64,000 nt of DNA from contig PLTV01000391.1 of NCBI GenBank assembly GCA_003164635.1, positions 870-64,869 of the forward strand, read 5' to 3'. Position 1 is the first letter of the stretch; each line of letters begins with the position of its first letter. This document shows, one piece after another, positions 34,462 through 53,900 of the stretch. The position numbers and the translations under genes were made by a program. The notes under the pieces are model-generated. The model worked only from the letters and a program-made list of their open reading frames with translations, made no database searches and was not told the DNA's origin. The stretch comes from Acidobacteriaceae bacterium. GTDB lineage: Bacteria; Acidobacteriota; Terriglobia; Terriglobales; Acidobacteriaceae.

Positions 34462-34571
34462 CCTGTGAATACAGTGATTGGTACAAAGCAATGACAAATC
34501 CCTAACAATCTGCGGCGGCTGCCGCCTCATACTCAGCCTCAATGCGACACAAACCTTTGAGAGCCAAATGT

Positions 34572-37500
34572 ATGAAAAGCCACTCGCGGCGGTGCATCTT
34601 CTTCCTATTGGCAGCTTACTTCTTTGTCGTTGCAAGCTCGGCGTTGGGACAGACTCCTGGAACAGGCGCCATCTCCGGCGTGGTGTATGACCCCGGCAGC
34701 CGAGTGGTCGGAAACGCCGTAGTGTTGACGGTGAACGAAGCTACGCGCATTTCACGCGCTGTAGTTTCAAACGCGGAAGGCGAGTTCCGCGTTTCATTGC
34801 TGAGCCCGGGAAGCTACTCCGTGAGCGTCAAAGCGCCGGGATTCGCGGAGCGCACGGCCCAATCGATTCAGGTGACCGGGAGCGAGACAACCGCACTCGG
34901 CGTAAAACTGGAAATTGCAACAGCGAGCGCCGGCGTACACGTGACCAGCGATGCCGAGATGGCTTCAATGGATAGTTCAACCCTGGGTCGCGCAGTCGAG
35001 CAGGACACAGTGCAGGCGTTGCCTCTGGCCAACCGGAATTACACCCAGATTCTCGCGCTGTCCCCAGGAGTTATCGTAAGTTTGCCGGATGCGACCGCGC
35101 TGGGTCGAGACTCGCAGAATGTTACTTCCAACGGCGCGAAGACCACATCGAACAACATCCAGTTCAACGGGATCGACGCGAATAACCTGTCGCAGAATTC
35201 GGCCGCCAACGACGGCGAAGAGGTGGGCACGGCCGTTCCCGCGCCAGACGCGATTCAAGAATTCAAAGTGCAGACCGCGAACTTCGACTCGGCGTACGGT
35301 CGCGGGGCAGGCGCTAACGTCGACTTCGTGAGCAAAAGCGGTACTAACCAAAACCACGGGAGCGCCTGGGAGTTTGTCCGCAACAACCTCTTGAATGCCA
35401 ATGGCTTTTTCTCGAAACTGGATGACCAGCAACGACCCACCCTGAAGCAGAACGAGTTCGGAGCTTCAGTTGGAGGGCCCATCAAGAAAGACAAAGCATT
35501 CTATTTCGTCGAGTACCAGGGAATCACTTCGGTCAATGGAGAAGGCGATGAAGTAACAACCACGCTTCCGCAACTTACGCCGGATCGCTCGGCTGCGACG
35601 CTGGGCGCACAGTTCTGCCCGGCGAGCAGGATGAACTTGTCTGGGTATCTTACCAACGCGGGTGGAACACAGGTAGCGTGCGACGGCTCGAATATCAATC
35701 CTGTTGCTCTCGCGTTGCTCAATTTCAAATTCAAGAACGGCGCGTATGCCATTCCCAGCCCCCAGGTGAGCCTGCCGGCGCAGGCGGGACAACTGCCGGT
35801 TGGTCAGTCGACCTTCGCTCCACCCGCGAGATACCAAGAGAACCAGTTTAGCGTGAATATCGATCAAGTGATGAGCGACAAGAACACGTTGTCAGGCAGG
35901 TTCTTCTACTCGCGAGCGCCGACTACTGAGCCGTTCTCCCCCAATGCCGCAAATCTGCCTGGATGGGGTACGAACGAGCTCGATCAAAATACGATGTTGG
36001 TTCTCGCGGACACGCATGTGTTCAATTCGAATCTCGTTAACCTGGCGCGATTTGGATACATGCGGTTCGACGGCATTTCATCCGTGTTAAATCCAATTCT
36101 GGCGTCGGACGTGGGAATGGATACGCCGACCGGAGTTCCCGGCACGACAGCTTCAGCGCCGGGCGTGAGCATCGGTGGCCTATTCACGACTGGCGATGCC
36201 GGTACACCATCGCAGTGGCAAAACACGAACAGCTTCATCTGGCAAGACACGCTCGCGCACACGCATGGCCGCCACGACACAAGGTTCGGGCTGGAGATCA
36301 AGAGACATGAAGTCGATGTGTATGCGCCCTTCAGCGCGGATGGATTGCTGCAGATTGCCACGTTTGAAGACTTTCTTCTGGGCGAGAACGCGATACAAAA
36401 TGGCAGCCCCATCGGGGTCAGCAACGTAACAAGCAGTACGGGCAGCTCCGGAATTTTTCGCAAGGACGAGCGCTATACCGATATCGCCGCATTTTTACAA
36501 GACGACATTCATCTGACTCATCGACTCACGGTCAACGCGGGCGTTCGTTATGAGATATTCGGCCCTCCTTCCGAGATCCATGGGCGTCTTCCGAGCTTCG
36601 ATCCCTCGATTGCGGAAGCCCAGGTGCCGATCACAGGATCTCTCAGCGGATATACTTTGCCGGCTAACTTCTCAGGCACCATTCCCACAGGAGTCAGAAA
36701 GACCGCCACATCCGGCCTGTGGGAAGTTGACTACCACGATATCTCGCCGAGGCTCGGTTTCTCGTTGCAGTTGACAGAAAAGCCGATCCTTTTGCTCCGC
36801 GGAGGATACGGCATCTATTTCGACCGGCCTTCCGCCGGCTTTGCGGAAGCGCAGATTGGGCAGCAGCCGTTCTCGCTGCAACAGATTTCTTTCAATGCGC
36901 AGAATGCGGGAGCGACCCTGGCGAGCCCGTTTGATCCATTGCTTCCGGACGTGTCGAGTTTTCCCATTTATCAGCCAAGAATTGCTGAGGGTGGTGCGTT
37001 TACGTCCGGCGTATCGCCACACGTGATAGACCCCTACACGCAGGAATACAACTTGAACCTGCAATATGCTTTCGCGAAAGATTTCCTTCTCGAGGCGGGC
37101 TTCGTTGGCACGCACACGACTCATTCGCCCGGGAGCATTGAATTCAACCAGGCACTTCTTGCGAGCGCGGGAGCGCCGGTGAACGGAACGACGATGAACA
37201 CAGCGGCCAACGTGATTCAGCGGCTTCCCTTCGCTGGTATCGCTACCGGATCACTGTTTTCGGGCACTGAATTCGAGGCAAACTATAACTCGCTTCAATT
37301 CAGCCTGACTAAACGGCTTAGTCGTGGATTGCAGTTTTTGGGCAGTTACACATGGTCAAAGATTCTTGATGAGACCAGCGGCTCGGGGGGAAGCAGCGTC
37401 TTTGAGCTCTGGCTGCTGACCAACGACCAGAACAACCCGCGTCAGGCATACGGCTTGACCGACTTCGATCGTGCCCAGAGAGCTGTGGTCAATTTTACGT

Positions 37501-38063
37501 GGGACGCTCCACAAATGCAGCAGGCGCCATCGCTGATTCGCCGATTGGTTTCAGGTTGGCAAGTGTCAGGCATTGGTGTGATCCAGTCCGGCAGTCCTGT
37601 AACGGTTCTTGACAGCAACGCCGGCATTGTTTACGGCAACTTTGAGAACAGAGCACAACGCACGGGATCGAATCCATCCACTCACGGTTCGCTGCATACT
37701 CGAGTGCTCAACGGCTATCTCGACCCGAATGCATTTACGATAGCGCCCGAAGCGCCGAACGGAAGCGGGCCTGGAGACACGGGCTTCGGCAATAGCGGTG
37801 TTGGCGTTGCGCGCGGACCCGGCCAGCATAACTTGGACATGGCCGTCGAGCGAAATTTTCCTGTGACCGAGGGGCGCAGTCTGCGGCTCCGCGCGGAATT
37901 CTTCAATCTCACGAATACCCCACAGTTCGCCAACCCCAATAGCAGCCTTGATTTCACGTCGGGCCCAAATGGTCCAGTGAATCTGAATCCGTCGTTCGGC
38001 ATGATTACGGCCACCTCGGCGAACCCGCGCATCGTTCAGCTTGCACTGAAGTTTCTGTTTTGA
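34572..38063 (+). CDS. TonB-dependent receptor, Oar-like with carboxypeptidase-regulatory domain (2)
   Basis: Outer-membrane receptor of 1163 residues from the ATG at 34572, chosen because the signal peptide (SRRCIFFLLAAYFFVVASSALGQ) starts there; an ATG ten codons upstream is possible. A carboxypeptidase-regulatory-like domain (GVVYDPGSRVVGNAVVL, GEFRVSLLSPGSYSVSV) precedes the plug, which has NRNYTQILALSPGV, and a long barrel ending in LKFLF with a C-terminal Phe. It differs clearly from receptor 1. A 27-bp gap links it to the HPr-kinase-like gene, and the MFS gene follows, so the three form an operon. Substrate unknown; the operon suggests one compound taken across the outer membrane, then across the inner membrane by the MFS protein. 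Confidence 0.92.
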   Translation: MKSHSRRCIFFLLAAYFFVVASSALGQTPGTGAISGVVYDPGSRVVGNAVVLTVNEATRISRAVVSNAEGEFRVSLLSPGSYSVSVKAPGFAERTAQSIQVTGSETTALGVKLEIATASAGVHVTSDAEMASMDSSTLGRAVEQDTVQALPLANRNYTQILALSPGVIVSLPDATALGRDSQNVTSNGAKTTSNNIQFNGIDANNLSQNSAANDGEEVGTAVPAPDAIQEFKVQTANFDSAYGRGAGANVDFVSKSGTNQNHGSAWEFVRNNLLNANGFFSKLDDQQRPTLKQNEFGASVGGPIKKDKAFYFVEYQGITSVNGEGDEVTTTLPQLTPDRSAATLGAQFCPASRMNLSGYLTNAGGTQVACDGSNINPVALALLNFKFKNGAYAIPSPQVSLPAQAGQLPVGQSTFAPPARYQENQFSVNIDQVMSDKNTLSGRFFYSRAPTTEPFSPNAANLPGWGTNELDQNTMLVLADTHVFNSNLVNLARFGYMRFDGISSVLNPILASDVGMDTPTGVPGTTASAPGVSIGGLFTTGDAGTPSQWQNTNSFIWQDTLAHTHGRHDTRFGLEIKRHEVDVYAPFSADGLLQIATFEDFLLGENAIQNGSPIGVSNVTSSTGSSGIFRKDERYTDIAAFLQDDIHLTHRLTVNAGVRYEIFGPPSEIHGRLPSFDPSIAEAQVPITGSLSGYTLPANFSGTIPTGVRKTATSGLWEVDYHDISPRLGFSLQLTEKPILLLRGGYGIYFDRPSAGFAEAQIGQQPFSLQQISFNAQNAGATLASPFDPLLPDVSSFPIYQPRIAEGGAFTSGVSPHVIDPYTQEYNLNLQYAFAKDFLLEAGFVGTHTTHSPGSIEFNQALLASAGAPVNGTTMNTAANVIQRLPFAGIATGSLFSGTEFEANYNSLQFSLTKRLSRGLQFLGSYTWSKILDETSGSGGSSVFELWLLTNDQNNPRQAYGLTDFDRAQRAVVNFTWDAPQMQQAPSLIRRLVSGWQVSGIGVIQSGSPVTVLDSNAGIVYGNFENRAQRTGSNPSTHGSLHTRVLNGYLDPNAFTIAPEAPNGSGPGDTGFGNSGVGVARGPGQHNLDMAVERNFPVTEGRSLRLRAEFFNLTNTPQFANPNSSLDFTSGPNGPVNLNPSFGMITATSANPRIVQLALKFLF

Positions 38064-38090: not shown

Positions 38091-39101
38091 TTGATCGAGA
38101 TTGGAGAAAGAGAATCTGTGCGACGGAAGCCGCCAAGCCCCATAGGCCTGAAGCACCCGCTGGAAGTTCCGGAGCTCGGCTTGAGCAGCTGGTTTTATCC
38201 TCTCGGTTTTCCAATTGAGCTGAGGACCAACAGCCTCGAGATTCTAGCGTTGGCTGATGGGCTTTGGTCGATCAATGAGCACCGCTTCGACACGAGAAGA
38301 ATTCGTGTCGATGTGCATGTTCTTGATGGCGATTCCACGGAATGCCCTCCGACGCCGCAGGTGCGAATCGCAGCTCCACTCCTGATCAATGTTGCAGATT
38401 CTGAAAACTACAGCATCGCCAACCTCGAAGAATTAACAACGCAGGTCTTCGTGTCGCGCGGAACACTCCGGCATGGCGCCTATATGGAGTATTTTCTGGT
38501 GGGAAGCGCGCCGTTATGTCACATAGCCTCGTCTCACACAACTCCGGTTCATGGAGCGTGCGTGGCTTGCAACGGCCGCGGAGTGTTGCTCTGCGGCGAT
38601 TCGGGCGCAGGCAAGTCTTCCCTTGCGTATGCCTGCGCGCGCGCCGGCTGGACCTATACAAGCGACGATGCAAGTTTTCTGCTAAACAAGGCAGATCGCA
38701 GGACAGTGGTCGGCAACTGCCACCAGGTACGCTTTCGTCCGTCAGCCATTGAACTCTTCCCCGAAGTGGAAGGACACGTCGTGACACCACGTGCGGCGGG
38801 CAAGCCGTCGATCGAGGTACCCACTGTGACGATGAATGGGGTCAACTGTTCGCCGACGGCAGAAGTCGACTTTCTTGTGTTTCTCAACCGTAAGGCTTCA
38901 GGCCTTCCGAGACTGTCGCGTTTCTCAAGAGACGCAGCGCGTCAATCTTTGCGGCAGGTACTGTACGGTATGCCTAAGACGATCGCCAGACAGGGAGCGG
39001 CCCTCGAGCGATTGCTTGCGATCGATGTATTTGAACTTCGTTATCGCGACCTGGATTGGGCTGTGAACCGGCTGGAGACACTGGTTCGCGAGGGATGCTA
39101 G
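38091..39101 (+). CDS. HPr-kinase/phosphorylase-like P-loop protein
   Basis: 336 residues. The Walker A GDSGAGKSS (169-177) and the TSDDASFL segment (190-197) match the catalytic C-terminal domain of HPr kinase/phosphorylase-like proteins. The first 150 residues have no recognised match and are not the HPrK N-terminal domain. TTG at 38091 is chosen for AAAGGA six bases before it. Proteins of this kind act outside PTS control too, for example phosphorylating serine in some lasso-peptide clusters or unknown partners beside membrane proteins. Here it sits between a TonB receptor and an MFS transporter with minimal gaps (27 bp, then a one-base overlap), so it may modify or gate these or their cargo. 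No HPr or PTS gene is in the window. Confidence 0.82.
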   Translation: MIEIGERESVRRKPPSPIGLKHPLEVPELGLSSWFYPLGFPIELRTNSLEILALADGLWSINEHRFDTRRIRVDVHVLDGDSTECPPTPQVRIAAPLLINVADSENYSIANLEELTTQVFVSRGTLRHGAYMEYFLVGSAPLCHIASSHTTPVHGACVACNGRGVLLCGDSGAGKSSLAYACARAGWTYTSDDASFLLNKADRRTVVGNCHQVRFRPSAIELFPEVEGHVVTPRAAGKPSIEVPTVTMNGVNCSPTAEVDFLVFLNRKASGLPRLSRFSRDAARQSLRQVLYGMPKTIARQGAALERLLAIDVFELRYRDLDWAVNRLETLVREGC

Positions 39102-40441: not shown

Positions 40442-40506
40442 TGTTGTGGTGTGGAATGCTTCGGAGCTGAACAAAAGCGGGTGAAAGTGTGGGCCTTGTA
40501 AGTCAA

Positions 40507-40524
40507 ATGTCACTGTTTTGTCAT
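40507..40524. promoter_or_regulatory. 11-bp-period direct repeat upstream of two-component operon
   Basis: ATGTCACTGTTTTGTCAT: two TGTCA boxes at 40508 and 40519, 11 bp apart, as in sites bound by OmpR/PhoB-type regulators. The site lies just upstream of the weak -35 position for a TAGCAA -10 element at 40553-40558, which suits an activator. It shares ATGTCACT-N4-TGTCA with the site at 49556-49572. Confidence 0.5.
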
Positions 40525-40600
40525 TTTCGGGCATCTTCCCCTCTTCAACGGATAGCAATCGGGTGACAATCAGAACATGTTACAGAGCGAGAAGGTAACA

Positions 40601-41320
40601 ATGGCTTTCGGCTCGGCCGACGTACACATGGACGCGGCGCGTCTCAATGTTCTGGTCATTGAAGATGACCCACACATCCAGAAAATTCTGGAGAGAGTGT
40701 TTCGCGAGCAGGGGTACCCTGTGACGGTTTGCGGCGATGGGAAGGCGGGGTTGGACGCGTTCCGTTCAACAAGACAGTCGGTCGTGATTTTAGATCTCGT
40801 GTTGCCCTCAATCGTTGGGCGCGATCTTTGCAAGATCATGAAGGCCGAACAACCGGGCGTCCCCGTGATCGTCCTCAGCGCGATCAGCGAAGTCGCCGAC
40901 AAGGTGCTGCTGTTGGAGTTGGGAGCGGACGACTACATGACCAAGCCGTTTAGCCCGCGTGAGCTGATGGCCCGGGTTCAAGCGGCCTGGCGCAGGCCTC
41001 GGGTCACGACGGCCTCGGGAACGACTTGCAGGTTTGGTGAATGTGAGATTGACTTTGCCAAGATGAGTGCGCGACGCGCGGGGAAGGCAGTTACCTTGAC
41101 AGCACACGAATTCAAGCTTCTCAAATATTTCGTTGAAAATGCGGAGCGGGTTCTTGGGCGCGAAGAATTGCTGAATGAGGTTTGGGGTTACAACGCCTAT
41201 CCGACAACGCGAACGGTCGATAATCAGATTCTGAAGCTTCGCCAAAAACTGGAGCTTGATGCAGCCGACCCGCAGCATCTGCAAACCGTGTATGGCGCTG
41301 GATACCGATTTGTCCCGTAG
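40601..41320 (+). CDS. OmpR-family response regulator
   Basis: 239 residues from the ATG at 40601, chosen for the GAAGG before it; an ATG eight codons upstream is possible. Receiver domain with the acidic pair EDD (21-23), phospho-acceptor Asp65 (VVILDLVLPS), a Ser at 93 and Lys115 (DDYMTKPF). A winged-helix DNA-binding domain follows (FGECEIDF, TLTAHEFKLLKYFVENAERVLGREELLNEVWGY, TRTVDNQILKLRQKLE, TVYGAGYRFVP). KdpE-like by receiver sequence. It probably binds the direct repeats at 40507, 47010 and 49556 once phosphorylated by the kinase encoded next. The kinase gene starts 16 bp later. Confidence 0.92.
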   Translation: MAFGSADVHMDAARLNVLVIEDDPHIQKILERVFREQGYPVTVCGDGKAGLDAFRSTRQSVVILDLVLPSIVGRDLCKIMKAEQPGVPVIVLSAISEVADKVLLLELGADDYMTKPFSPRELMARVQAAWRRPRVTTASGTTCRFGECEIDFAKMSARRAGKAVTLTAHEFKLLKYFVENAERVLGREELLNEVWGYNAYPTTRTVDNQILKLRQKLELDAADPQHLQTVYGAGYRFVP

Positions 41321-41336
41321 CGGTGGAGAGGAATCT

Positions 41337-43130
41337 GTGTCAACCGGGAAGCGCGTTCCAGGAATCCGGACTCGCGTACTGCTGCTGACGTCGCTGGTCT
41401 TGATTATCGCGGGTACAACTGCATCCAGCCTATACATTATTCGCAGTCGGCTGCAACAACAGGTGCAAACGGCTTTAGAGTCGGACCTGACACATTCGGT
41501 GGAGACCTTCCAAGACCTAGAGGCAGGGCGCCGGGAGTTGCTCGAGCGTGAAAATGCTCTGATGGCCGACCTGCCCAAACTCAAGGCATTGATGACCACC
41601 AACGATCCGCGAACCATTGCGGATGATGCGGTGGAATTCTGGAAGACCAGCGGCAACGACCTATTTGCCTTGGCAGATGGGGATGGAAAGGTTCAGGCCG
41701 CATTTGCCAGGGGCATCGCTAAGACCGATGTATTGAGCCATGACGTACAGGAAGTTATCTCTGATCCTTCAAAGCATTACCTTTTGAGTGATAGCCGCCT
41801 TTTTGAATATTCCGTGCAGCCTCTGTATTTCGGTAGCAGCGCGAATGGTTCGCTACTGGGCTACGTCGTCAGTGGGTATGCAATCGACAGTAAATTTCTT
41901 CGCGAAGTAGGACGCGGAGCCGGGGCGGAAGCAACTTTTCTTGCCGGCGATACAGTCACTGTGAGCACGTTGCCGCCCGACAAAGAAACCGCTTTGCGGG
42001 CCGCGGAACATTCGCTTCAGAGCAAACATACGGCGACGGTGATGATCGCGGGCGAACGCTACCTTACCGTTGCAGAAGATCTGACCGGTGGCGCGGATAC
42101 CTCGTTACGGCTCGTAGTGATGAAGTCGTTTGCTTCTGCCGACCGTGCTGAGAAAGAGATCGATCTGCTCATCTTCTGGGTGAGCCTGCTGGCCATGGCC
42201 GCGGGCTCCGCTTTGATGCTTCTGTTGGCGAGGATGGTGACCCGGCCTCTTGAAATGCTCGCTGCCGGCGTGCGCGCCTTCGGGGAGGGCGATCGACGAC
42301 ATTCCCTTCCCTCGGACGGCACTCAGGAAGTGCAGTACCTCAGTCAGGTATTTGCGCAAATGCGCGATGAGATTGAGAAAACAAATCGGGCGCTGCTGGA
42401 GTCAGAAAGATTGGCGACCATTGGGCGCATGGCCAGCTCTGTTTCTCACGACCTGCGGCATTATCTCGCGTCAGTCTACGCGAATGCCGAGTTCCTTGCA
42501 TCGCCGACAGTACCGGCTAACGAACGCGCGGAGCTTTACGAAGAGATCCGCCTGGCGGTGAATGGAACCACCGACATGCTGGACTCGTTGCTGACGTTCA
42601 GCCGGACCGGGACCGCTCTCCATCGCGTGCCAACTTCGATGTTTACGCTTGTGGACCGCGCAGTCTCTATGGTGAAGGCGCACCCCGACGCGGAACTTGT
42701 CACGGTTCAGTTGGAGGAGTGCAGTAAGGATTCGACGGCTGCCTTGGACATCAAGCAGGTGGAACGCGCTGTGTATAACCTGCTGCTGAATGCTTGCCAA
42801 TCGGCTCGGGAAACTGCTGACCGGCACGAAGTTCGAGTGCGCGTGAGCGGCGATGCGCATTTTGTCAGCGTCACGATTATCGATAGCGGGCCGGGCGTTG
42901 CGGATGGAATTCGGGAGAGCCTGTTCGACCCGTTCGTGAGCCAAGGAAAGCAACGGGGGACGGGATTAGGTTTGACATTGGCCTGGAGCGTTGCTCGCGA
43001 GCACAACGGCGATGTGAGGCTTGTGAGCAGCCGGCCAGGCGAAACGATTTTCCGGTTGAACGTGGGCCGACATATTGAGCCATTAACCATGAACGGCAGC
43101 CCTTCACGGAGCAAAGTCTTCACGCCATGA
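41337..43130 (+). CDS. Membrane sensor histidine kinase
   Basis: 597 residues from the GTG at 41337 (GGAGAGG five bases upstream; the frame is open 27 codons earlier inside the regulator gene). Two transmembrane helices (near 14-36 and 275-300) bracket a periplasmic sensor region of unknown fold. A HAMP segment follows (RMVTRPLEMLAAGVRAFGEGD), then the phospho-acceptor SVSHDLRHYL with His371, an N box (NLLLNACQSA), a G1 box (IDSGPGV) and a G2 box (GTGLGL). Its partner is the upstream response regulator. ATGA overlap with the next gene means the porin-like protein is made from the same transcript. The signal sensed is unknown; the operon and its apparent regulon point to metal, respiration or envelope stress. 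Confidence 0.92.
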   Translation: MSTGKRVPGIRTRVLLLTSLVLIIAGTTASSLYIIRSRLQQQVQTALESDLTHSVETFQDLEAGRRELLERENALMADLPKLKALMTTNDPRTIADDAVEFWKTSGNDLFALADGDGKVQAAFARGIAKTDVLSHDVQEVISDPSKHYLLSDSRLFEYSVQPLYFGSSANGSLLGYVVSGYAIDSKFLREVGRGAGAEATFLAGDTVTVSTLPPDKETALRAAEHSLQSKHTATVMIAGERYLTVAEDLTGGADTSLRLVVMKSFASADRAEKEIDLLIFWVSLLAMAAGSALMLLLARMVTRPLEMLAAGVRAFGEGDRRHSLPSDGTQEVQYLSQVFAQMRDEIEKTNRALLESERLATIGRMASSVSHDLRHYLASVYANAEFLASPTVPANERAELYEEIRLAVNGTTDMLDSLLTFSRTGTALHRVPTSMFTLVDRAVSMVKAHPDAELVTVQLEECSKDSTAALDIKQVERAVYNLLLNACQSARETADRHEVRVRVSGDAHFVSVTIIDSGPGVADGIRESLFDPFVSQGKQRGTGLGLTLAWSVAREHNGDVRLVSSRPGETIFRLNVGRHIEPLTMNGSPSRSKVFTP

Positions 43131-44692
43131 AATCTATTTCAAACCACGATGACGACGTGCACATTGTCAAGGATCGTCGCTGGGACATCCTATTCGTGCC
43201 GGCAGCTATCCTTCTGTGTTTCTGTTCGCCGCTTCCGCGAGTGCAGGCGCAGAACGGGCCTGCGCAGGCCACGTCGAGCGAGACGAGCGAACAGAAAGTG
43301 GATTCCCTGACCAAAGCGATGGCGCAGGCTCAATCGCAAATGGAGACGGTTCAAACGCAGTTGGCTGAATTACGCGCTCAACTGGCCGCGCTGCAGCAAC
43401 AAATCGCGACGGAGAAGGCCAATGCACCGGCCGCAACGCAACACGCAGCCGCGAGCGGAGACACGACAGAGTCAACTTCCGGACCTGCCGCGGCGCTAGA
43501 TGAGATTCGAGAACGCCAGGCAATCGAGGAATCTCAAATTGCGACACATGACGTGGCCAAGGTTGAGACGGATTCCAAGTATCCGCTGAAGGTAAGTGGG
43601 CTTTTGTTGCTCAACGGCTTTGTGAACACGAGGCAGGTTGACGTTGCTGCGGCTCCGACATACGCACTTCCGGGGTCGGGCAGCACGGGGCTCTCGATCC
43701 GGCAGACGGTGTTAGGGCTCGATGCACGCGGGCCGCGTCTGGCTGATGCAGCCAGCCGGGCCGATCTGCGTGTGGACTTTTTTGCAGGTGAAACCTCCGC
43801 GGACTATCCCGGCGGCGTTCTCCGATTGCGAACGGCTCACGCGGCGCTTGACTGGAAGAATACGGAGGCATTCTTCGAACTGGATCGGAGCCTTCTTGAG
43901 CCGAACGAGCCTTCCTCGTTGGTTGCCATTGCACAACCGGAACTGGCGTGGGCGGGGAATCTTTGGAATTGGAATCCGCAAGCCGGAATATCCCACCATT
44001 TTGCGCTTTCAGATTCAGCGCGGATGAAGATTGAGACGGCGTTCATTGATGCCTCAGACCCCATTCCACCGGGATTGACGGCAAGTGCGCCATCCGTGAC
44101 GCAAACGGAACGAAGCCGCTGGCCGGGCGTAGAGGCTCGGATCGCTTTCCAGCACGGAGAGAGTGGGATTGGGACGGAAGTTGGAGTGGGCGGATATTTC
44201 AGCCCGCATCGTGCGGGAGACGGCAACACCTTCAACGCATGGGCTGGAACAGTGGATTTGAAAATGCCGCTGAGCCGATATTTTGAATTGACGGTCAACG
44301 GATATCGCGGTCAGGCGCTCGCCGGACTCGGCGGCGGTGGATACGTGAACTACTACGATCTTTACGAAGGATCGGAGGAGTACGCACACGGACTAGACGA
44401 CGCGGGGGGCTGGGCCCAATTGAAGGCTCGACCCGCGACGCGTTTGGAGATCAACGCGGGGTTCGGCGTTGACAACCCATTCGCAAAGGAGATTCAAGCA
44501 TCGATGGCATCCGCTGGAAGTTCGAATTACCCGGGGCTGGCACGCAATCGCGGTGTCTATTCGAATGCCATCTACAGTCCAAGCGCATATCTACTTTTCT
44601 CCGTCGAATACAGGCGGCTTTGGACAAATTACAGTTCGGGTCCAACCGATTTCACCGACGTGATTGGAATTGGGGCGGGGTACAGGTTCTGA
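43127..44692 (+). CDS. Coiled-coil porin-like outer-membrane protein
   Basis: 521 residues. A signal peptide (ILFVPAAILLCFCSPLPRVQAQ) and a long alanine/glutamine-rich coiled coil (about 56-105: VDSLTKAMAQAQSQMETVQTQLAELRAQLAALQQQIA) precede a beta-barrel-like region rich in alternating hydrophobic residues and ending in GAGYRF with a C-terminal Phe. The layout, with a coiled coil before a barrel, is that of DcaP-type or related porins. The start codon overlaps the kinase stop as ATGA. Function likely outer-membrane channel; the substrate is unknown. Inclusion in a two-component operon suggests it is a target controlled by, or part of, the same response. Confidence 0.85.
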   Translation: MKSISNHDDDVHIVKDRRWDILFVPAAILLCFCSPLPRVQAQNGPAQATSSETSEQKVDSLTKAMAQAQSQMETVQTQLAELRAQLAALQQQIATEKANAPAATQHAAASGDTTESTSGPAAALDEIRERQAIEESQIATHDVAKVETDSKYPLKVSGLLLLNGFVNTRQVDVAAAPTYALPGSGSTGLSIRQTVLGLDARGPRLADAASRADLRVDFFAGETSADYPGGVLRLRTAHAALDWKNTEAFFELDRSLLEPNEPSSLVAIAQPELAWAGNLWNWNPQAGISHHFALSDSARMKIETAFIDASDPIPPGLTASAPSVTQTERSRWPGVEARIAFQHGESGIGTEVGVGGYFSPHRAGDGNTFNAWAGTVDLKMPLSRYFELTVNGYRGQALAGLGGGGYVNYYDLYEGSEEYAHGLDDAGGWAQLKARPATRLEINAGFGVDNPFAKEIQASMASAGSSNYPGLARNRGVYSNAIYSPSAYLLFSVEYRRLWTNYSSGPTDFTDVIGIGAGYRF

Positions 44693-45417
44693 TGCTCGTA
44701 GCGATTCACAAACGTTTTTTCTGGTTGCTGCTTCCAGCCAGTCTGTTGTCGTGCTTCGCCGCGCAGATACCGTCAGCGCCTGGAAGTCCCATTAAAGCGA
44801 TCGCCAGACTCGCGCCGAACCCACACGACTCAACGCATAAACCGGCGAAAGCGCCTCCAGCCGTGATCTGGCTAAATCCGGTCGAGACAAGGCTTAATCA
44901 GCCCTTCCTTCCCGGCAGCTTCACCCTTCTGCAAAAGAACAAGATGTTTACGCCGCACTTGCTGGTATTGCCGGTCGGAAGCACCGTTTCATTCCCCAAT
45001 GCCGATCCGTTTTTTCACAACGTTTTTTCTCTCTTCGATGGGAAGCGATTCGACCTCGGATTGTACGAGGCAGGCTCAACTCGCAGCGTTGTTTTTTCCC
45101 GTGTCGGCGTCTCCTATATTTTTTGCAATATTCATTCCGAGATGAGTGCGGTGGTGATTGCACTGGAGACCCCGTATTTTGCGATCGACGATGCGCACGG
45201 AGTATTTCTTCTGGAAAACATGCCTCCTGGAGATTACGATCTGCATGTGTGGATCGAGGGCCAGAAACAGGCTTCGCTGGATACACTCACGCGCCGGGTT
45301 CGCGTTCGAGGAGAAGTTACCGATCTTGGCGAGATCCGCGGAGGCCAGCCTGAACCGAAGACGCACGTGAACAAATTCGGCCGGCCCTACAACCCTGATC
45401 CGCGCCCCATCTATTAA
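44692..45417 (+). CDS. Cupredoxin-like predicted lipoprotein
   Basis: 241 residues from the ATG that overlaps the previous stop (TGATG), so translation is coupled. SLLSC (17-21) may be a lipobox. A single cupredoxin-like beta sandwich spans about 55-155. His109 (FFHNVF), Cys145, His148 and Met151 (CNIHSEM) have the order and spacing of a type 1 copper site, so mononuclear copper binding is likely. A short carboxypeptidase-regulatory-like beta region follows (VFLLENMPPGDYDLHVWIEGQK). Such proteins are electron carriers or copper handlers. It is the last gene of the two-component operon and faces the cytochrome/barrel pair on the other strand. Confidence 0.85.
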   Translation: MLVAIHKRFFWLLLPASLLSCFAAQIPSAPGSPIKAIARLAPNPHDSTHKPAKAPPAVIWLNPVETRLNQPFLPGSFTLLQKNKMFTPHLLVLPVGSTVSFPNADPFFHNVFSLFDGKRFDLGLYEAGSTRSVVFSRVGVSYIFCNIHSEMSAVVIALETPYFAIDDAHGVFLLENMPPGDYDLHVWIEGQKQASLDTLTRRVRVRGEVTDLGEIRGGQPEPKTHVNKFGRPYNPDPRPIY

Positions 45418-45431
45418 CAATAGATCTCCTC

Positions 45432-45452
45432 CTTTCACCTTTGGGGTGAGAG
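45432..45452. terminator. Hairpin between convergent operons
   Basis: CTTTCACC-TTTGG-GGTGAGAG, an eight-pair stem with one T-G pair, in the 60-bp gap between the cupredoxin-like gene and the small cytochrome gene. A likely shared terminator, though without a T-run. Confidence 0.4.
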
Positions 45453-45477
45453 CAGGGTGACGGTTCGGTCCGCGCGC

Positions 45478-45762
45478 CTAAGGGTTAAAGAATCGCAGGA
45501 GCACTTCGGTATCGTGCCGGCTGAGTTGTGCGCGAATCCGCATGTGCTGCACGATCGTTCCTGAAATACGCGGCGAAAATCCATCGGGCGCAGAGTGGCA
45601 GCGAGAACATTGTTGCTCGAATATCCGCTGGCCTCCGTCTTGCGTACGCACCTGGCTTTTGTATGGTTTCGTTCGCGGTGCTCGATCTTGCTGCGCTGTC
45701 AGCGCAAACGCAGAAACCTCAACTGCAATGAGGACGCTAGACACAATATGTTTGAGATTCAC
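45478..45762 (-). CDS. Small c-type cytochrome
   Basis: 94 residues from the GTG at 45762, which overlaps the stop of the barrel gene as GTGA. An N-terminal signal-type hydrophobic segment (HIVSSVLIAVEVSAFALTAQ) precedes one heme-binding CSRCH (52-56). Met74 is a possible axial ligand (VQHMR). Fewer than 50 residues surround the heme, so it is a very small class I type domain. It probably moves electrons in the periplasm, perhaps with the neighbouring copper proteins. The start further upstream (45819) is not used because the signal peptide begins at the GTG. Confidence 0.82.
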   Translation of the reverse strand: MNLKHIVSSVLIAVEVSAFALTAQQDRAPRTKPYKSQVRTQDGGQRIFEQQCSRCHSAPDGFSPRISGTIVQHMRIRAQLSRHDTEVLLRFFNP

Positions 45763-46826
45763 CGTAGTTTGCCTTTCCACGCGGGAAATAAGAAGCGATA
45801 GACAATCCCTGTCTCCCACACATTGTGATTTTCAGTGGATGAAAACTGACGCGCATAGCTTGTGATGATCCTCGTGTTGTGTGGCAAGTTGTAATCGAGC
45901 CCAAAGTCGGCCCGCTGTGTGTTGACCGAAGGCAAGCCGTCGGTTGCTGTCGTATCTCTGCGAAAAGTCTGCTGCATGCGAAACACGGGCTCGAAGCGCC
46001 CAATAACACTGTCGAGGCCGCCGAATGCCTTCATGCGGTAGTCGGCCTCGATCCAGTAACCCTGCGCGTGGCTGCCACGAGCGAATTCAGACCTGAGTCG
46101 AAACGCCGTATCCGCGGGCTCCCACCAGACATGGGCCCCGTAGAAGTTCTCGTGTTTGCCTTGCAATTGGCGGTCGTACGAAAACCCCGCCTCAATGCCT
46201 TTTTCGGGCAAATAGAAGCTGACGCGGCCGCCGGTCCCGCGTTCCGCGCTGAACTGCGCATTGCCACTTCGAACAGAGTAGAAGTAGCTATAGTCAACTG
46301 AGATTTTGCTTCGCGCAATCGCGTTGCCGCGCAACATGCCGCCCAAACCGCTGCCGCTCGAGAGAGTGCCAAGCGCAGTAATCAACGGGCCGTCTTGAAA
46401 GTTGCCGATCCACACGGGTGATAGCCGCTCGATGTAGGTGTTGAAAGGGATGAGGAAATCGCCCGCGACAAATGAGAAATCAGAAGAAGCAATCACGTCC
46501 CCTTGCAGATAAGACAAACCAATGAAGTGGGCGTGGTTGTAACCATTCTGATTGTTCGCCTGGGGGGCAAAGGTCTCCAGAAGTGCCGCACGCGACTCGA
46601 TGAGGACGCGAGGCCCAAGAGGAGCGGCGAGGAGAGGCTCAATGATAGGCAAATAGGTTGTGTTGCCTGCGTTGGTATTCGAGAAAAACGCGACGCCGCC
46701 CGAAATCAGCGGCGCATCCTGAGCAAGACCATTCTGCACAAACACGGCAAACAAGCCGATCACAATTGTGCGACGGAGAAAAATTGGCGTCGTGTGATGC
46801 ATCCAACGTAGAGCCGGGAAGAACAT
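45759..46826 (-). CDS. Outer-membrane beta-barrel protein, unknown
   Basis: 355 residues. A signal peptide (RTIVIGLFAVFVQNGLAQ) is followed by a mature chain with alternating hydrophobic and polar strands, aromatic girdle residues, and repeated GYxxAHFxG/YWIEADYRM-type strands that suit an outer-membrane barrel. I do not recognise the family. It overlaps the following cytochrome gene by four bases (GTGA), so the two proteins are likely made together; one may carry electrons through, or load, the other. No ribosome site is evident before the first ATG, and Met9 is an alternative. Confidence 0.8.
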   Translation of the reverse strand: MFFPALRWMHHTTPIFLRRTIVIGLFAVFVQNGLAQDAPLISGGVAFFSNTNAGNTTYLPIIEPLLAAPLGPRVLIESRAALLETFAPQANNQNGYNHAHFIGLSYLQGDVIASSDFSFVAGDFLIPFNTYIERLSPVWIGNFQDGPLITALGTLSSGSGLGGMLRGNAIARSKISVDYSYFYSVRSGNAQFSAERGTGGRVSFYLPEKGIEAGFSYDRQLQGKHENFYGAHVWWEPADTAFRLRSEFARGSHAQGYWIEADYRMKAFGGLDSVIGRFEPVFRMQQTFRRDTTATDGLPSVNTQRADFGLDYNLPHNTRIITSYARQFSSTENHNVWETGIVYRFLFPAWKGKLR

Positions 46827-47175
46827 GACTACGAAGTTAAAGGATTGCCCAGAGCCGTGTGTCGCGTGAACGTCTGTTGTTTGTCAAACGATTGTCTGCG
46901 CCCAGGGGCCTGAATCAATGAAACTCTCTGACCTGACTTCGTTGCGCCTTCCGAGAAAACATGCGCCCTCCGCCCGGTTCCACTGAGCGCAGGGCTCGCA
47001 GCAATGCAGTGACAATCGCCTTACAGAGACTTGACAAGCATCGAATCGCATCCGAATAAGGTCGAATAAATGGTAGCGACTCCGATCAATGAACCTGATT
47101 AGCCGACCCACCGACCGGGGACGTCAAGCGCGGGTGATAAAGATCGAGCGCATCCTCTATCCGAAAGGGCTAAGC
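46827..47175. other. Divergent intergenic region, barrel/cytochrome vs CuA/cytochrome
   Basis: 349 bp between the minus-strand barrel gene and the plus-strand CuA gene. It contains the 11-bp-period repeat (47010-47036) but no gene; a 75-codon minus frame here has no recognisable features. The promoter of the CuA gene is probably near TTGACA (47031-47036) although the -10 match is poor. Confidence 0.45.
47010..47036. promoter_or_regulatory. 11-bp-period triple repeat upstream of CuA operon
   Basis: TGACA (47010), TTACA (47021) and TGACA (47032) recur every 11 bp. The last box lies inside TTGACA. Compare the sites at 40507 and 49556, where TGTCA/TGACA also recur at 11 bp. A divergent barrel/cytochrome operon starts on the other side, so the site could serve both. 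Confidence 0.45.
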
Positions 47176-47541
47176 ATGGAAGCCAAAGCTGCGATGAAGT
47201 TGATATGCACCGGTATTCTTTTTTCTACGCTCTTGCCAGTTCTGACAGCTATCGCCCAAGCAGCACCGCGGCGCATTGAAGTTACGGCGAAGCGCTTCGA
47301 ATTCTCGCCTAGCGAAATCACGTTGAAGCGAGGTGAACCGGTGGTGCTCATCATTAAAAGCGCTGACGTGCCGCACGGAGTCCGTTTCCGTGAACTCGGG
47401 GTCGAAGTGAGGACGGGAAGGGGTGAAGCCAGTGAGGCTGCGTTCACACCTGCTAAAGCAGGTACTTTTGTTGGCCAGTGCTCCGTCTTCTGCGGAGCGG
47501 GGCATGGGAAGATGAAGCTCATTCTCCACATTGTGGACTAG
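47176..47541 (+). CDS. Free-standing CuA-domain protein
   Basis: 121 residues from the ATG at 47176 (AAGGG six bases upstream; the frame is open 29 codons earlier but without features). A signal peptide or membrane anchor (LICTGILFSTLLPVLTAIAQAA) is followed by a cupredoxin domain. The ligand set matches CuA centres of cytochrome oxidase subunit II and nitrous-oxide reductase: His67 (VPHG), Cys102, Cys106, His110 and Met113 in C-S-V-F-C-G-A-G-H-G-K-M with exact canonical spacing. The usual Glu at the third position is Val, which is tolerated because only its carbonyl binds copper. No oxidase subunit I is in the window. It is followed three bases later by a cytochrome c gene, so the two likely exchange electrons. 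Confidence 0.88.
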   Translation: MEAKAAMKLICTGILFSTLLPVLTAIAQAAPRRIEVTAKRFEFSPSEITLKRGEPVVLIIKSADVPHGVRFRELGVEVRTGRGEASEAAFTPAKAGTFVGQCSVFCGAGHGKMKLILHIVD

Positions 47542-47544
47542 ATC

Positions 47545-48036
47545 ATGGCAAAGTTTGCGGCTCTGATTGTTGCAGCAACTCTCCTGTCGCTGTTGCTCGT
47601 CGCGCTGATCGGCATTCAAGTTCTGGGTTGCAAAGCGGACCCGCCGAGCAGATCGGAGACGGCCATCATGAATTGGATCAAGCACCGGCTGTTGGTGCGC
47701 GGAAAAGACGATAAGAATCCGTTAAACGATAGTGTGGCCGATGGCAAAGAGGCGTTCTCTCATTATTGCGTTGCGTGCCATGGGCTCGATGGGCAGAATA
47801 CCGGGGTGCCGTTCGCTGACCGAATGGCGCCTCCCGTCCCCTCACTCGCGGGAAAAGATGTTCAGTCATACACGGACGGGCAACTGAAATGGATCATCGA
47901 CTACGGCATCTGGCCTTCGGGCATGCCGGGATCGAAAGGCATGTTAAGCAAGGATGAGATTTGGTCGATAGTGACTTTCCTGCGCCATTTACCGCCGGCC
48001 GGAAGTGCAGGGAGCCCCGAGATGTATAGCCACTAA
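47545..48036 (+). CDS. Membrane-anchored cytochrome c
   Basis: 163 residues. A single N-terminal transmembrane helix (about 4-28) anchors the protein, and a class I cytochrome c domain follows with CVACHG (75-80) and a distal GMPG (Met about 127). The sequence DRMAPPVPSLAG and WIIDYGIWPSGMP resembles cytochrome domains of copper-dependent oxidoreductases. It starts 3 bp after the CuA gene. It most likely takes electrons to or from the CuA protein in the periplasm. Confidence 0.9.
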   Translation: MAKFAALIVAATLLSLLLVALIGIQVLGCKADPPSRSETAIMNWIKHRLLVRGKDDKNPLNDSVADGKEAFSHYCVACHGLDGQNTGVPFADRMAPPVPSLAGKDVQSYTDGQLKWIIDYGIWPSGMPGSKGMLSKDEIWSIVTFLRHLPPAGSAGSPEMYSH

Positions 48037-48056
48037 GACATTAACCGGCCGTCCGG

Positions 48057-49466
48057 ATGAATAAACGAAAGAACAATCTTATGCTGACATTTTCCTTCCA
48101 ATCCGCATACGCATCGGTGCGAATCCCGAGCGAGGTCAAGGCGCTTCTCTTCGCTCTTCAGCTCAGAGATCCCGACTTATCTCAGCTTATTCGCTTGGAT
48201 GACGACGGATGGACTAAACTTCTCTCCTATTGCGACGTTGCCCATTTGACTTTGACAGTTGCGCAATTGCCTGCGGGCTGCATGCCGCATTGGGTTGCGA
48301 AACGACTCAACGGGAACCTTGCTGATAATGCTCTTCGTTTCGAACGGGTGAAGGCGACATACCGAGAAGCACGTGCAGCGCTCGACAGAGCGAGTGTCGA
48401 ACATCTGGTGATCAAAGGTTTTGCGCAATCGCCGGATTATGTTGCGGACCCTCGGTTACGAGCTCAGTCGGATATTGATGTTCTCTGCTTGCCGAAATGC
48501 ATTGAAACTGCATCGAAGGCCTTGCAGTCTATTGGCTATCGCCCCTCGGACGCAGAACCCAGTTATGTTTTGGCCGACCATGCGCCGACACTCGTGCGCA
48601 TCGGCAATTGGACGTGGAGGGGCAACTCATTCGACCCAGAAATGCCGCTCAGTCTTGAGTTGCATTTTTGCCTGTGGAACGAACCGGTCTCACAAACTCC
48701 TATGCCGGAGGTCCGTGCGTTTTGGGAGCGGCGGTCTCACCGCGAACTTGATGGGCTCGTCTTCCCGAGCCTTAGCGGCGTGGATCAACTCGCTTACATG
48801 ACGCTCCATATCCTGCGTAACCTCTTCCTACGAGCCTGGATCATCCACCATGTTCGTGAACTGGCAGTCTTCCTTAACAACCATGCCGATGACGATGCGT
48901 TCTGGCATAGCTGGAGCAAGATTCATTCATCGAGAATGCGATCAATTCAGGCAATCGCGTTTTACTACGCGCGCGCATGGTTCAACTGCCGTCTTCATCC
49001 TATGGCAGCGCACGAGATAGATACACTTCCCGCGAATCGGCGGAGCTGGCTTGATTGTTTCTGCGGGTCTGCGCTCGAATCAATGTTTCGCCTCAACAAG
49101 GACTTTATGTGGCTGCAACTGACGCTCGTTCCTACGATGGCGGGGAAATGGAAAATACTCCGGCGTGCCTTCTTTCCTGCGCGCATCGCCCGAATCGGAG
49201 TTTTGCCCATTCGAATCGAAAACAGACGAATTGTTCCTTCGCGCGCGGCGAGCCATTGGCAGCAATACATCGCATACCTTTACTCGCGAACTTTCGCGTA
49301 CGCCCGCTCGAACATGGCCACGCTCGCACGAGGCTTTGGCTGGTACGTATCGCGCGTGGTTTTCTCAGCCGAGGCGGGTATGCGCAAAGGTTCCAAAGAT
49401 CCAGGTAAGGGATCTACCGATTTCGGTCTTGCCGGCGAGAGACTCGACGATGTGCATCCATTCTGA
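48057..49466 (+). CDS. Nucleotidyltransferase-fold protein (NTP_transf_5-like)
   Basis: 469 residues with no signal peptide. HLVIKGFAQSPDYVADPRLRAQSDIDVLC in the N-terminal half matches the conserved KG...Y.DP..R...DIDLL block of the uncharacterised nucleotidyltransferase family often called NTP_transf_5. The remaining 300 residues are helical and of unknown role. In other bacteria such genes occur near lasso-peptide and polysaccharide clusters. Here the gene is 20 bp after the cytochrome c gene, which suggests co-transcription with the CuA operon, but a link in function is not obvious. Substrate unknown. Confidence 0.8.
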   Translation: MNKRKNNLMLTFSFQSAYASVRIPSEVKALLFALQLRDPDLSQLIRLDDDGWTKLLSYCDVAHLTLTVAQLPAGCMPHWVAKRLNGNLADNALRFERVKATYREARAALDRASVEHLVIKGFAQSPDYVADPRLRAQSDIDVLCLPKCIETASKALQSIGYRPSDAEPSYVLADHAPTLVRIGNWTWRGNSFDPEMPLSLELHFCLWNEPVSQTPMPEVRAFWERRSHRELDGLVFPSLSGVDQLAYMTLHILRNLFLRAWIIHHVRELAVFLNNHADDDAFWHSWSKIHSSRMRSIQAIAFYYARAWFNCRLHPMAAHEIDTLPANRRSWLDCFCGSALESMFRLNKDFMWLQLTLVPTMAGKWKILRRAFFPARIARIGVLPIRIENRRIVPSRAASHWQQYIAYLYSRTFAYARSNMATLARGFGWYVSRVVFSAEAGMRKGSKDPGKGSTDFGLAGERLDDVHPF

Positions 49467-49555
49467 TCACTTATAGTCGTGTTGTACTTCCATATGGCGC
49501 TCCCGGCCACCGATCCCGTCCCTGCTGTGTATCTCGATAGGACGCGACAATCCTA

Positions 49556-49572
49556 TGACATTCGAGTGACAT
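49556..49572. promoter_or_regulatory. 11-bp-period direct repeat upstream of NHL-type propeller
   Basis: TGACATTCGAGTGACAT: TGACA at 49556 and 49567, 11 bp apart. Its reverse complement shares ATGTCACT-N4-TGTCA with the site at 40507-40523. Located 120-136 bp before the start of the next gene. Confidence 0.45.
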
Positions 49573-49691
49573 GCCGCAGGCGCAATTGCGAGTAGCATAA
49601 GCGGCGATGGACTTGATTGCTGTGACCGAGCTATAAGTCGGTCTTCACATTTTTCCAAGGCAACATCGAACGAACTTCAGAAGGAGATGGC

Positions 49692-50837
49692 ATGTCATCG
49701 AAAGCGATTCTGAACGAATGCAAAGCGAGTGTGCTGAACATGAGCTATAAATGCGTGCGAGGTTTCCGCGCGGCAGAAGTCGCAGCGGCGATTTTGGCAC
49801 TGACACCAGGACTTATGCACGCTCAGCAACCCAGCGCGGAAGATGCTTTCTTGCCCAGCCCGGTAAGGGTCGTCTCTACGGTCCCGGCAAATGGAGATGT
49901 GAACCCGTATGGTGTTGCGTTTGTTCCTGGGAACTTTGACACCAATTCAGGGCCCTTGAAGCATGGGGACATTCTCATTTCAAATTTCAATAGCAAGAGC
50001 AATCTGCAAGGGACGGGATCAACCATCGTGCGCGTTCCCGCGAGTGGATCGGCAAGCTTGTTTTTTCAAGGCGGAGCGGGACTTGGGCTTTCGACGGCGC
50101 TGGGTACCTTGAGGGCCGGCTTCGTGGTTGTGGGCAACGCTCCGACCAAGGATGGGTCCTCGGCGACGGCGAGCGCAGGTTCGCTGCTCGTAATTGATAG
50201 CCGGGGCAAGCTTGTCCAGACGATTGCGAATGACTGGATCCAGTACCCGTGGGATATGGCGCTTGTCGACCATGGAGACTCCGCGACCGCGTTCGTGACG
50301 AATGCATTGAATGGAACCGTGAGCCGGTTAGACTTTAAGGTAAGCGCGAGCGGTCTCACGTTACTCAGCGCGATTACCATCGCATCTGGATATGTTCATC
50401 GCGGCGATCCGGTAGCGCTTTTTGTCGCTCCAACCGGGCTCGTTTATGATGGCAACCGCGATCGGCTCTATGTGGCGTCGACGGGAGATAACGCCGTGTT
50501 CGCGATCGCAAATGCCGCTGAGACACACACAGACTCCGGAAGAGGAGCGATTATCTACGAGGATGATGCGCACCTTCACGGGGCGCTCGGACTGGCCGCG
50601 GCTCCCAATGGTCACTTGCTGGTGAGTAACAATGACACGGTCAATTCGGATCCCAAGCAGCCAAGCGAGATTGTTGAGTTCACCAAAGAGGGCGAATTCG
50701 TGAAGGAGTTATCGGTGGACCCCAGTCAGGGAGGATCGTTTGGGTTGGCTGTAAGGTCGACCAGCGACGAGTCAATTTTTGCAGCGGTGGACGATAATGC
50801 TTCCACGCTTATCATTTGGACGCTGAACCTGCCGTAG
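49692..50837 (+). CDS. Secreted NHL-type beta-propeller protein
   Basis: 381 residues from the ATG with AAGGAG six bases upstream. A signal peptide (VAAAILALTPGLMHAQ) precedes repeated beta blades: NPYGVAFVPG, GDILISNFNS, DRLYVASTGDNAVFAI, HGALGLAAAPNGHLLVSNND and SFGLAVR. This is an NHL/SMP-30-like six-bladed propeller, probably periplasmic or secreted. No catalytic residues are obvious. The direct repeat at 49556 suggests control by the two-component system at 40601-43130. Confidence 0.85.
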   Translation: MSSKAILNECKASVLNMSYKCVRGFRAAEVAAAILALTPGLMHAQQPSAEDAFLPSPVRVVSTVPANGDVNPYGVAFVPGNFDTNSGPLKHGDILISNFNSKSNLQGTGSTIVRVPASGSASLFFQGGAGLGLSTALGTLRAGFVVVGNAPTKDGSSATASAGSLLVIDSRGKLVQTIANDWIQYPWDMALVDHGDSATAFVTNALNGTVSRLDFKVSASGLTLLSAITIASGYVHRGDPVALFVAPTGLVYDGNRDRLYVASTGDNAVFAIANAAETHTDSGRGAIIYEDDAHLHGALGLAAAPNGHLLVSNNDTVNSDPKQPSEIVEFTKEGEFVKELSVDPSQGGSFGLAVRSTSDESIFAAVDDNASTLIIWTLNLP

Positions 50838-50935: not shown

Positions 50936-53900
50936 TTACTCTGCCGAAAAAGAAGAAAGAGTCACCGGCCCCAGGAGTCCGGATGCCACCAGAGGTGAAT
51001 TGACCTTATAGGGCTTTACGGTTGTAAAGGTGTATTGCTTCGCATTCGGCTGTTGATCGCCAATGAGCCGATTCACCCACGCATTCGTCACCTTGATTGC
51101 GACCTCGTTCCTGCCCGGCTTCAAAGCGGTTGTCACGTCGACACGGTATGGTTTGTGCCAAACGACGCCGAGCGGCTTGCCATTGACTATGACCTGAGCA
51201 AGGTTGTCGACCTCCCCAAGATTCAGCCACAGATGCGTAGCTCTCCGGAACCACTCAGGCTTTGCATCAATATCCTTTGTATAAGTGCCCGTGCCGGAAA
51301 AATACTTGACGCCTTCATCGGCGTTGTCGCTCCACGAGGAAAGGCTTGCCATGGTTGTGGAAGGGGGAGCACCTCGTTCCGGTTGGAAGGCCACGTTCCA
51401 CGGGCCTTCCAGAGTCATGAGTTGTTTCTCAGTTTCAAAGGGCAGCGTGCGGGACTTCTCCTGGGTTGTCTTGCGAAAGACGACAAAGACCGTACCCCAC
51501 GGTCCAAGTTTGATGGGAACGGTGGTTCGACCATCGGCAATTGTGAATGGGGCGGGAACTGATTTTCCAGTCTCGGCGTACCATAACTCAGGCGCCTTGC
51601 CACCTATTCGAAAGCTGGCGTTGAAGACTTGATCGTAGTCACTCCTGTTGTCGACGAAGTAGAGATCGCCATCGCTGAGCTTGCGGTGAACAAAGGGCAG
51701 GCGAACGTCGCCTTCCGACTTTGTGTAATCAAAGTCTGGTGCGATTTTCAGCAGGGCCAGCGCTTCTGCTGGGGATTGCCCTGCGTAGACAGCGCCCTTA
51801 CCCACTTTGTGAATTCCGGAGCCATCGCCAAATAATTCTTCGTTGAGCTTTCGGAATTCGGCCTGATCGTCGGCAAGACTCGGATCGTCGATTGGTTTAG
51901 AGCCAACAATGACAGCTCCTTCGACCACTAGGTTACGAATCGCACGCAGTGCGGGTAAAGACATGTGCCGGCTATAGGGGTCAAGCCCCAGCAGACGGTA
52001 GCTCATTCCGCTCTTTGTGGTGATTTTCCCGTCTGCGACGGTAAGTTCGTGGATAAGACCGTCGGCGTTGATGTAATCGAATCCATAACCCGCGGGCAGG
52101 TCGGGCGACTTATCGCCAAAGATTGCGGTAAGGTTGGAATCTTCGCCATAGAAGTAGAGCAGATCCGCGCCAAAATGACCCTGCTGGAGGAGATAACTGG
52201 TTCGGGCTAGATAGTCGATCCAGGGTCCTGCCTGGTCTGCCCACGTCTCATTGCGGTTGAACCATTGACCATAAGGCCCAAGGGTCAGTCCAGGCGCTTT
52301 GTTGACCAGCGGTTGGTGGGCCGATTCGTGAATGACGATTCGGTTGATGCCGTTGAGGAACTCCTGGTCGGCGGTGGGCTTGAGCGTAGCCGGCGACCAT
52401 CCCCAGGGCGCCTCTGAAGCGGTCATGGATTCTGCGGCTGCCAGGTTTTGTCCGTAGATATGGGCCACTGAGGCCGACTCGCGGTCGTCGGCGTTGTAGC
52501 CGTATGTCTCTTTATTGACGCCGGGCCTCTGGGTCCACATTGCCGACATGGGAACCTCGTTGAGTTTCTTTACTTCCATGCCGTCGGCGATCAAGGCGCG
52601 CCCGGATTCATGCGATTCCCCATAATGGCCAAGGTTGTGAGCATGGATGGACGCTTCAACCTGCGCGTAATGCTCATCGGAAGTGAGGTCGGCGATTGTT
52701 TTTCTCAGGTCCCACAGGAATCGATCACTGGCCGCTGCGCTCTCGACGACATGACCCGCCAGGACGGGAAGCCATGGGGTTGGATCGTAGCCTCGATATT
52801 TCTTGAATTGGGCGATCATGTTATCAGTCCAGTTTTGCGGACCGGCTTCCCAACTGTCCGTAATGATGAATCGCAGGCCACGTTTCCCCATGAGGTCTGG
52901 CCCGACCGTGTGCTCGTATGTATCCAGATAGGTGTCCATGTAATGGCGGACATAGCGGCCGTCGAGCTTGTCGACCTCGAACCCCGTGGCTTCGCGGGTT
53001 GCGGGGTGATTGCGAATGCCGAGCAAAGAGTAACCCAGGCGCACGACGACCCAACGGCCTGGGGGCGGGGTCCAATCCAAGGTGCCGTCGGGCTGCATTT
53101 TGCTGGTGAGATCGACGATCGAATTCTTGTCGATAGCCTCAGACGCCGGCACGGTTGGTGTGGCCAACCCGTATAGGTCGTCCATGGTTGTGAAGGCCGC
53201 TTTATCTTCGAATCTGTTTACACGAGCGCCGGTGTAAAGCACGAGTTCGGCGACATCTACTGAAGCTGGCGCTGGGGCTTTCGTTGCGAACGTGATGCGG
53301 AAGAAGCGCGCGGTTACAGGAGCGAATGCGGTCGTGGTCCCAACATCTCCGTTTTCGATATGGACAACATTTCGAAAGGTCTGGCCGTCATCGCTGGCTT
53401 CGAGATCGCATCCGTTTTCGCCGCTGCCCTCGCAGATCTGCATCGCGTCGCGAGAACTGGCCATGTGCAACGTGATGGCCTGGATGCGCACAGGCTTCTC
53501 AAACTCGTAAAGCAGCCAGGACGGAACACCCGCCTTAGCGGAGGAAAACGTTATGCCGTGGACATCGTCTCCATCGGAGAGCGGGGTGGGATCGATCGGA
53601 ACATCGGGCGCTGCGCTGGTGGTCACCTTGGGATGCAGTGTGAAGATGGCGACATCATCTTCGGGAAGCCGATAAGCAACGACTGCACTGTCGGCATAGT
53701 GCACCGGGTCGGCCGCTGCGGTCAAATAGTCTGGCAAGTCATGGTTGGGCAGGTTCTGGAAGGCTCCGGTGTTTGAGGGGGGATGCGGCAGAACTCCGTG
53801 AAACGGCTTCGAGCCTTCGACCTCGATCTCACTCCATACATATTTTTTCATCGCTTCCGCTGGGGGAACCCAGGGACCACCGGTCTCGCTCCAGCCGGGC

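Follow-up and report, generated by a model that had tools for sequence, protein, structure and literature searches.

Operators of the OmpR/PhoB family of response regulators are direct repeats with a period of about 10-11 bp. In E. coli, the Pho box has the consensus CTGTCAT-A(AT)A(TA)-CTGT(CA)A(CT) (PMC3465305, PMC10294691). In the Salmonella PhoP promoters, head-to-tail boxes may face either way and keep set distances from the -10 element, where they take the place of the -35; no reversed box of the PhoP regulon was observed at less than 24 nt from the -10 (PMC3335776). The locus described here lies in a stretch of 64,000 nucleotides (the window) from an Acidobacteriaceae genome and contains several repeats with an 11-bp period. 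By their sequence and conservation, these repeats have the layout of OmpR/PhoB-family operators, and very probably the neighboring two-component regulator uses them as its DNA switches.

The gene cluster and its repeat arrays

The regulator consists of a receiver domain and a Trans_reg_C winged helix, both with Pfam scores above the cut-off. The genes of the cluster and its surroundings are the following:

34542..38063, + strand: Oar-like TonB-dependent receptor, first gene of a TonB receptor / HprK-like / MFS block
40577..41320 (start 40577 or 40601), + strand: OmpR/PhoB-family response regulator (Response_reg 1.3e-26, Trans_reg_C 2.1e-26)
41256..43130 (longest ORF), + strand: sensor histidine kinase (HAMP, HisKA, HATPase_c; weak CHASE4 match)
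43127..44692, + strand: porin-like protein (coiled coil, then a beta-rich part)
44698..45417, + strand: secreted cupredoxin with plastocyanin/amicyanin fold (invariant H107, CNIHSEM copper-ligand pattern)
45478..45819, - strand: small c-type cytochrome in the barrel transcript (Cytochrome_CBB3 below the curated cut-off)
45759..46826, - strand: predicted outer-membrane beta-barrel protein, without Pfam match
47089..47541, + strand: CuA-type (COX2-like) cupredoxin
47545..48036, + strand: c-type cytochrome
48057..49466, + strand: NTP_transf_5 nucleotidyltransferase-like protein
49692..50837, + strand: NHL-repeat propeller protein

The true start of the kinase is probably near 41340. For the porin-like protein no class is claimed, since its structure model is of low confidence (pLDDT 36). 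The order regulator, kinase, porin-like protein, cupredoxin recurs across the Acidobacteriaceae: in the 20 relatives of this family that were examined, the kinase adjoins the regulator in every context (20/20), the porin-like gene is present in 19/20 and the cupredoxin in 17/20, with two further contigs ending before the cupredoxin position. In the closest relatives (L038, L039 and L040), the TonB receptor, HprK-like, MFS, barrel, cytochrome, CuA and nucleotidyltransferase genes also keep the same order. The cupredoxin with its CNIHSEM pattern stays with the regulator throughout the family, also in genomes that lack the cytochrome and CuA genes, and for this reason it may be close to the sensed signal.

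Two other gene groups can be observed in this region. HprK-related and NTP_transf_5 genes (38091-39101 and 48057-49466 in the window) recur in relatives beside radical-SAM and PhyH genes (L203-L214), a grouping resembling a peptide-modification cassette. Beyond the NHL gene, the minus strand of the window (50936-58654) encodes a GH106 alpha-L-rhamnosidase, a phosphoesterase-family protein and a multicopper-oxidase-like ORF; no operator match is listed near the genes of 50936-58654.

The repeat arrays and the -10 elements that belong to them are as follows, where A to D are putative operators and E is a probable one:

40497..40523, + strand: operator A, TGTAA/TGTCA/TGTCA with 11-bp period, 5' of the regulator operon; candidate -10 TAGCAA at 40553-40558
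46860..46897, - strand: operator B, AGACA/TGACA/AGACG/CGACA, four boxes read toward the barrel gene; -10 TAACTT 20 bp beyond the last box, within 46834-46864
47010..47036, + strand: operator C, TGACA/TTACA/TGACA, read toward the CuA gene; -10 TAAGGT 20 bp beyond the last box, at 47057-47062
49545..49571, + strand: operator D, CGACA/TGACA/TGACA, read toward the NHL gene; -10 TAGCAT 21 bp beyond the last box, at 49593-49598
34481..34507, + strand: operator E, degenerate GTACA/TGACA/TAACA before the TonB-dependent receptor; -10-like CATACT at 34528-34533

A, C and D are triple 11-bp direct repeats of TGTMR boxes with N6 between the boxes. An initial annotation of this DNA had listed boxes at 11-bp steps before the regulator, CuA and NHL genes, and all of these are present in the sequence. 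It had also correctly seen that ATGTCACT-N4-TGTCA is common to the regulator and NHL sites when opposite strands are compared. These two sites had been described as two-box sites; the boxes are indeed there, but both sites are triples. Overlooked were the arrays B (barrel and cytochrome genes) and E (TonB receptor, weaker), as well as the reversed orientation of the own-operon site and the likeness of the boxes to the E. coli Pho box. The interval from operator A to the start of the regulator also holds one TGACA and one TTACA box (40564-40584 of the window); they stand 16 bp apart, which is off the spacing of the motif.

The repeats are rare in their own assembly (4.82 Mb in 398 contigs), which is 70% complete and may therefore lack additional sites. 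In all contigs together, TGTCA-N6-TGTCA is found at two places, and both belong to these sites. When up to one mismatch is allowed, the three-box pattern yields three matches, exactly the operators A, C and D, against an expectation of 0.28 genome-wide and 0.004 per 64 kb, and the proposal of the initial annotation survives this comparison with chance. With two mismatches there are three more matches, all on other contigs, which equals the reversed-pattern control (3).

Promoter geometry and the sign of regulation

In the aligned sequences, the last box ends 20-21 bp before a TAnnnT in 9/9 barrel, 9/9 CuA and 9/17 NHL promoters. No -35 element above chance was found at 16-18 bp from the TAnnnT in the barrel, CuA and NHL promoters. 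At the own operon, the boxes are reversed relative to the other sites and are located about 28-46 bp from the candidate -10s, at a distance that varies and is 29 bp in the window.

The best explanation, in which we have high confidence on the sequence evidence, is that the repeats are the operators of the regulator encoded at 40577-41320, with phosphorylation by the kinase, binding to arrays, activation of the targets and autoregulation. From the observed repeats, their conservation, the promoter geometry and the co-occurrence with the regulator, the following course of signal, phosphorylation, binding and activation may be proposed. The adjacent kinase would sense a cue and phosphorylate the regulator. 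The regulator subunits would line up head to tail along three or four TGTMA boxes, with roughly one box for each helical turn. Once bound at the barrel, CuA and NHL promoters, and probably also at that of the TonB receptor, the regulator would recruit RNA polymerase, most likely resulting in activation. At the own operon autoregulation is probable, and positive autoregulation would be likelier than negative. For the barrel, CuA and NHL promoters, it is the fixed distance of 20-21 bp to the -10 together with the missing -35 that suggests activation.

The same operators and the same regulator could also serve repression: the regulator would then shut down the barrel, CuA and NHL promoters by covering their -35 region, and would activate at most its own operon. 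The last box does cover the -35 position, the target boxes face the way that, close to the -10, gave no activity in the PhoP study (PMC3335776), and PhoB has been described as a dual regulator (PMC10294691). Since the PhoP study reports no reversed box at less than 24 nt from the -10 (PMC3335776), the geometry of the targets is unusual and leaves some room for repression. However, these promoters have no usable -35 to block, and a distance of 20-21 bp to the -10 that stays fixed over many genomes is typical of polymerase contact, not of blocking. Repression is therefore considered unlikely, although it deserves to be kept in mind, and activation from these arrays is the preferred reading.

Conservation and the link to the adjacent regulator

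Among genomes other than that of the window, a TGTMA pair at exactly 11 bp is found in 24/34 regulator promoters (Fisher P 7e-12), 25/29 barrel promoters (P 6e-15) and 15/29 NHL promoters (P 1e-7), where the P values refer to the promoters of paralogous OmpR-type regulator genes as controls (0/40 with the pair) and the related genomes are not independent. Spacings besides 11 and 22 are nearly empty. About 30% of the regulator promoters do not contain the strict pair, including those of the close relatives L039 and L040. In one genome (G040), the NHL gene is located on another contig (C5) than the regulator (C9), and the NHL site is still present. In a relaxed scan (at most 4 mismatches of 20), four boxes with 11-bp period precede 28/30 barrel genes, while 0/900 shuffled sequences reached the threshold; in 25 barrel promoters the TAnnnT follows exactly 20 bp past the four-box array. 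The barrel promoters L148, L161, L163 and L166 seemed motif-less under the strict rule, but turned out in the relaxed scan to have four-box arrays. The degenerate triple of operator E has the same position and layout in L038 and L039.

Two profiles were used to connect the motif to the regulator: R1 was built solely from the regulator promoters of other genomes, and R2 from the target promoters of other genomes. In the own genome, R1 finds two sites, both in this cluster and with operator B as top match, and R2 finds solely sites of this cluster (best match: operator C, E 4.6e-4). These genome searches scored 150 candidates per genome, and weak sites could therefore be missed. Within the window and with filters off, the top ranks are B, D and A for R1, and C, B, D and E for R2 (E with 9.9 bits). 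Across 20 regulator-bearing relatives, R2 yields 127 matches, six of these genomes having supplied training sequences; the other 14, from which no training sequence was taken, account for 60 matches, 15 of them with E <0.01. The 20 relatives without a close regulator orthologue have 3 chance-level matches, none better than E 0.24. Of 30 further genomes with the barrel gene or with motif matches, 29 were found to have the regulator. The residues of its recognition helix are nearly invariant among 64 orthologues. One regulator gene (L297) was suspected to be broken; this was dropped, as the stops precede the true start.

Because of the 127 matches in regulator-bearing versus 3 in regulator-lacking genomes, the motif appears tied to this regulator and not to OmpR-type proteins generally, as a correlation and not as proof of binding. 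That the regulator uses the repeats at its own operon, in the CuA/barrel region and at the NHL gene, as the initial annotation had put forward, gains support from the conservation of the sites and from their co-occurrence with the regulator. Co-occurrence is correlational, and with tens of OmpR-type regulators per genome, another one with the same binding preference might be the user of the sites. This is improbable: in most genomes the sites are present in the promoter of the adjacent regulator itself, and the targets lie next to its gene, while the 40 paralogue promoters are without sites and the regulator-lacking genomes are without the motif despite their many paralogues.

A further possibility is that the sites form a local phosphate regulon, with the regulator as PhoB and the boxes as Pho boxes. 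The TGTCA-N6-TGTCA half sites are present as in the Pho box consensus, with the same 11-bp step as the E. coli box (PMC3465305), and the regulator reaches 189.6 bits against the NCBIfam PhoB model TIGR02154. However, this score is below the curated PhoB equivalog cut-off of 296.2, and a TGTCA-containing 11-bp pair was found upstream of 0/29 pstS genes, where the four pairs that do occur are all TGTAA-TGTAA. Moreover, another OmpR-type paralogue is located about 3 kb from pstS in several genomes, and the targets examined are not phosphate genes. The low PhoB score and the pstS promoters without TGTCA pairs led to the rejection of this identity, which is now highly improbable. The regulator is PhoB-like and would work like PhoB or PhoP, but it is not PhoB. 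Upstream of pstS, several promoters of the family (L237-L266) contain TGTAAC-N5-TGTAAC; this 11-bp repeat is akin to the motif without being identical to it, and may be the true Pho box of the family. A TTTGC repeat was also considered for this role, but the pstS promoters did not confirm it.

Chance repeats or tandem -35-like elements without any regulator can practically be dismissed: some boxes do read TTGACA (the sigma-70 -35 consensus) in gene direction, but three to four boxes at exactly 11 bp, the TTACA and AGACG variants, a distance to the -10 of 20-21 bp and not 17 bp, the assembly-wide counts, and the family-wide conservation with its dependence on the presence of the regulator all contradict this.

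Wider targets and comparison with known systems

In the relatives, strong matches stand beside genes for B12/radical-SAM proteins, PhyH dioxygenases, GT87, polysaccharide-export proteins, a CHRD/PEP-CTERM protein, a glucose/sorbosone dehydrogenase and a TonB receptor. Together with the cytochrome, CuA and barrel genes, we read these putative targets as a surface and exported redox programme. As a tentative extension, which may well prove too broad, the regulator would act across the whole family as an activator from reversed arrays of three to four boxes, 20-21 bp from the -10 and without a -35, and would co-ordinate exported electron transfer and surface assembly (cytochromes, CuA protein, cupredoxin, TonB receptor, radical-SAM and polysaccharide-export genes). 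Weak R1 matches are also found just past the cupredoxin gene, on the opposite strand, in L048 (14463-14489), L059 (14669-14696) and L063 (6139-6168).

No description of this circuit was found in the literature searched, including searches aimed at Acidobacteria. The gene circuit is apparently undescribed, although its principle is well known. As the motif has a fixed geometry and follows one regulator, it provides a testable regulon across a whole family, and the circuit would connect surface and redox genes without a functional name to one signal. It also presents a case of PhoB-type half sites in an unusual orientation, and a caution that not every TGTCA-N6-TGTCA site is a phosphate box.

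Among regulators of known structure, RegX3 (2oqr), MtrA (2gwr) and KdpE (4kfc) share the domain architecture, with 153, 146 and 131 bits, respectively. Their gene neighborhood differs, and the regulator is below the NCBIfam cut-offs for MtrA and KdpE. The Salmonella PhoP promoters are alike in that boxes are used both ways, with set distances to the -10 and in place of a -35; they differ in their half site and in the distance of reversed boxes, as the arrays described here end 20-21 bp from the -10. For this reversed, -35-less architecture at 20-21 bp, no report was found for PhoB or PhoP. E. coli PhoB shares the TGTCA half site, the 11-bp direct repeat, the domain architecture and a regulator gene with its own box. 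In contrast to PhoB, the regulator is below the PhoB cut-off, the targets examined are not phosphate genes and there is no link to pst genes, while the target boxes read TGACA toward the -10 and form arrays of three to four.
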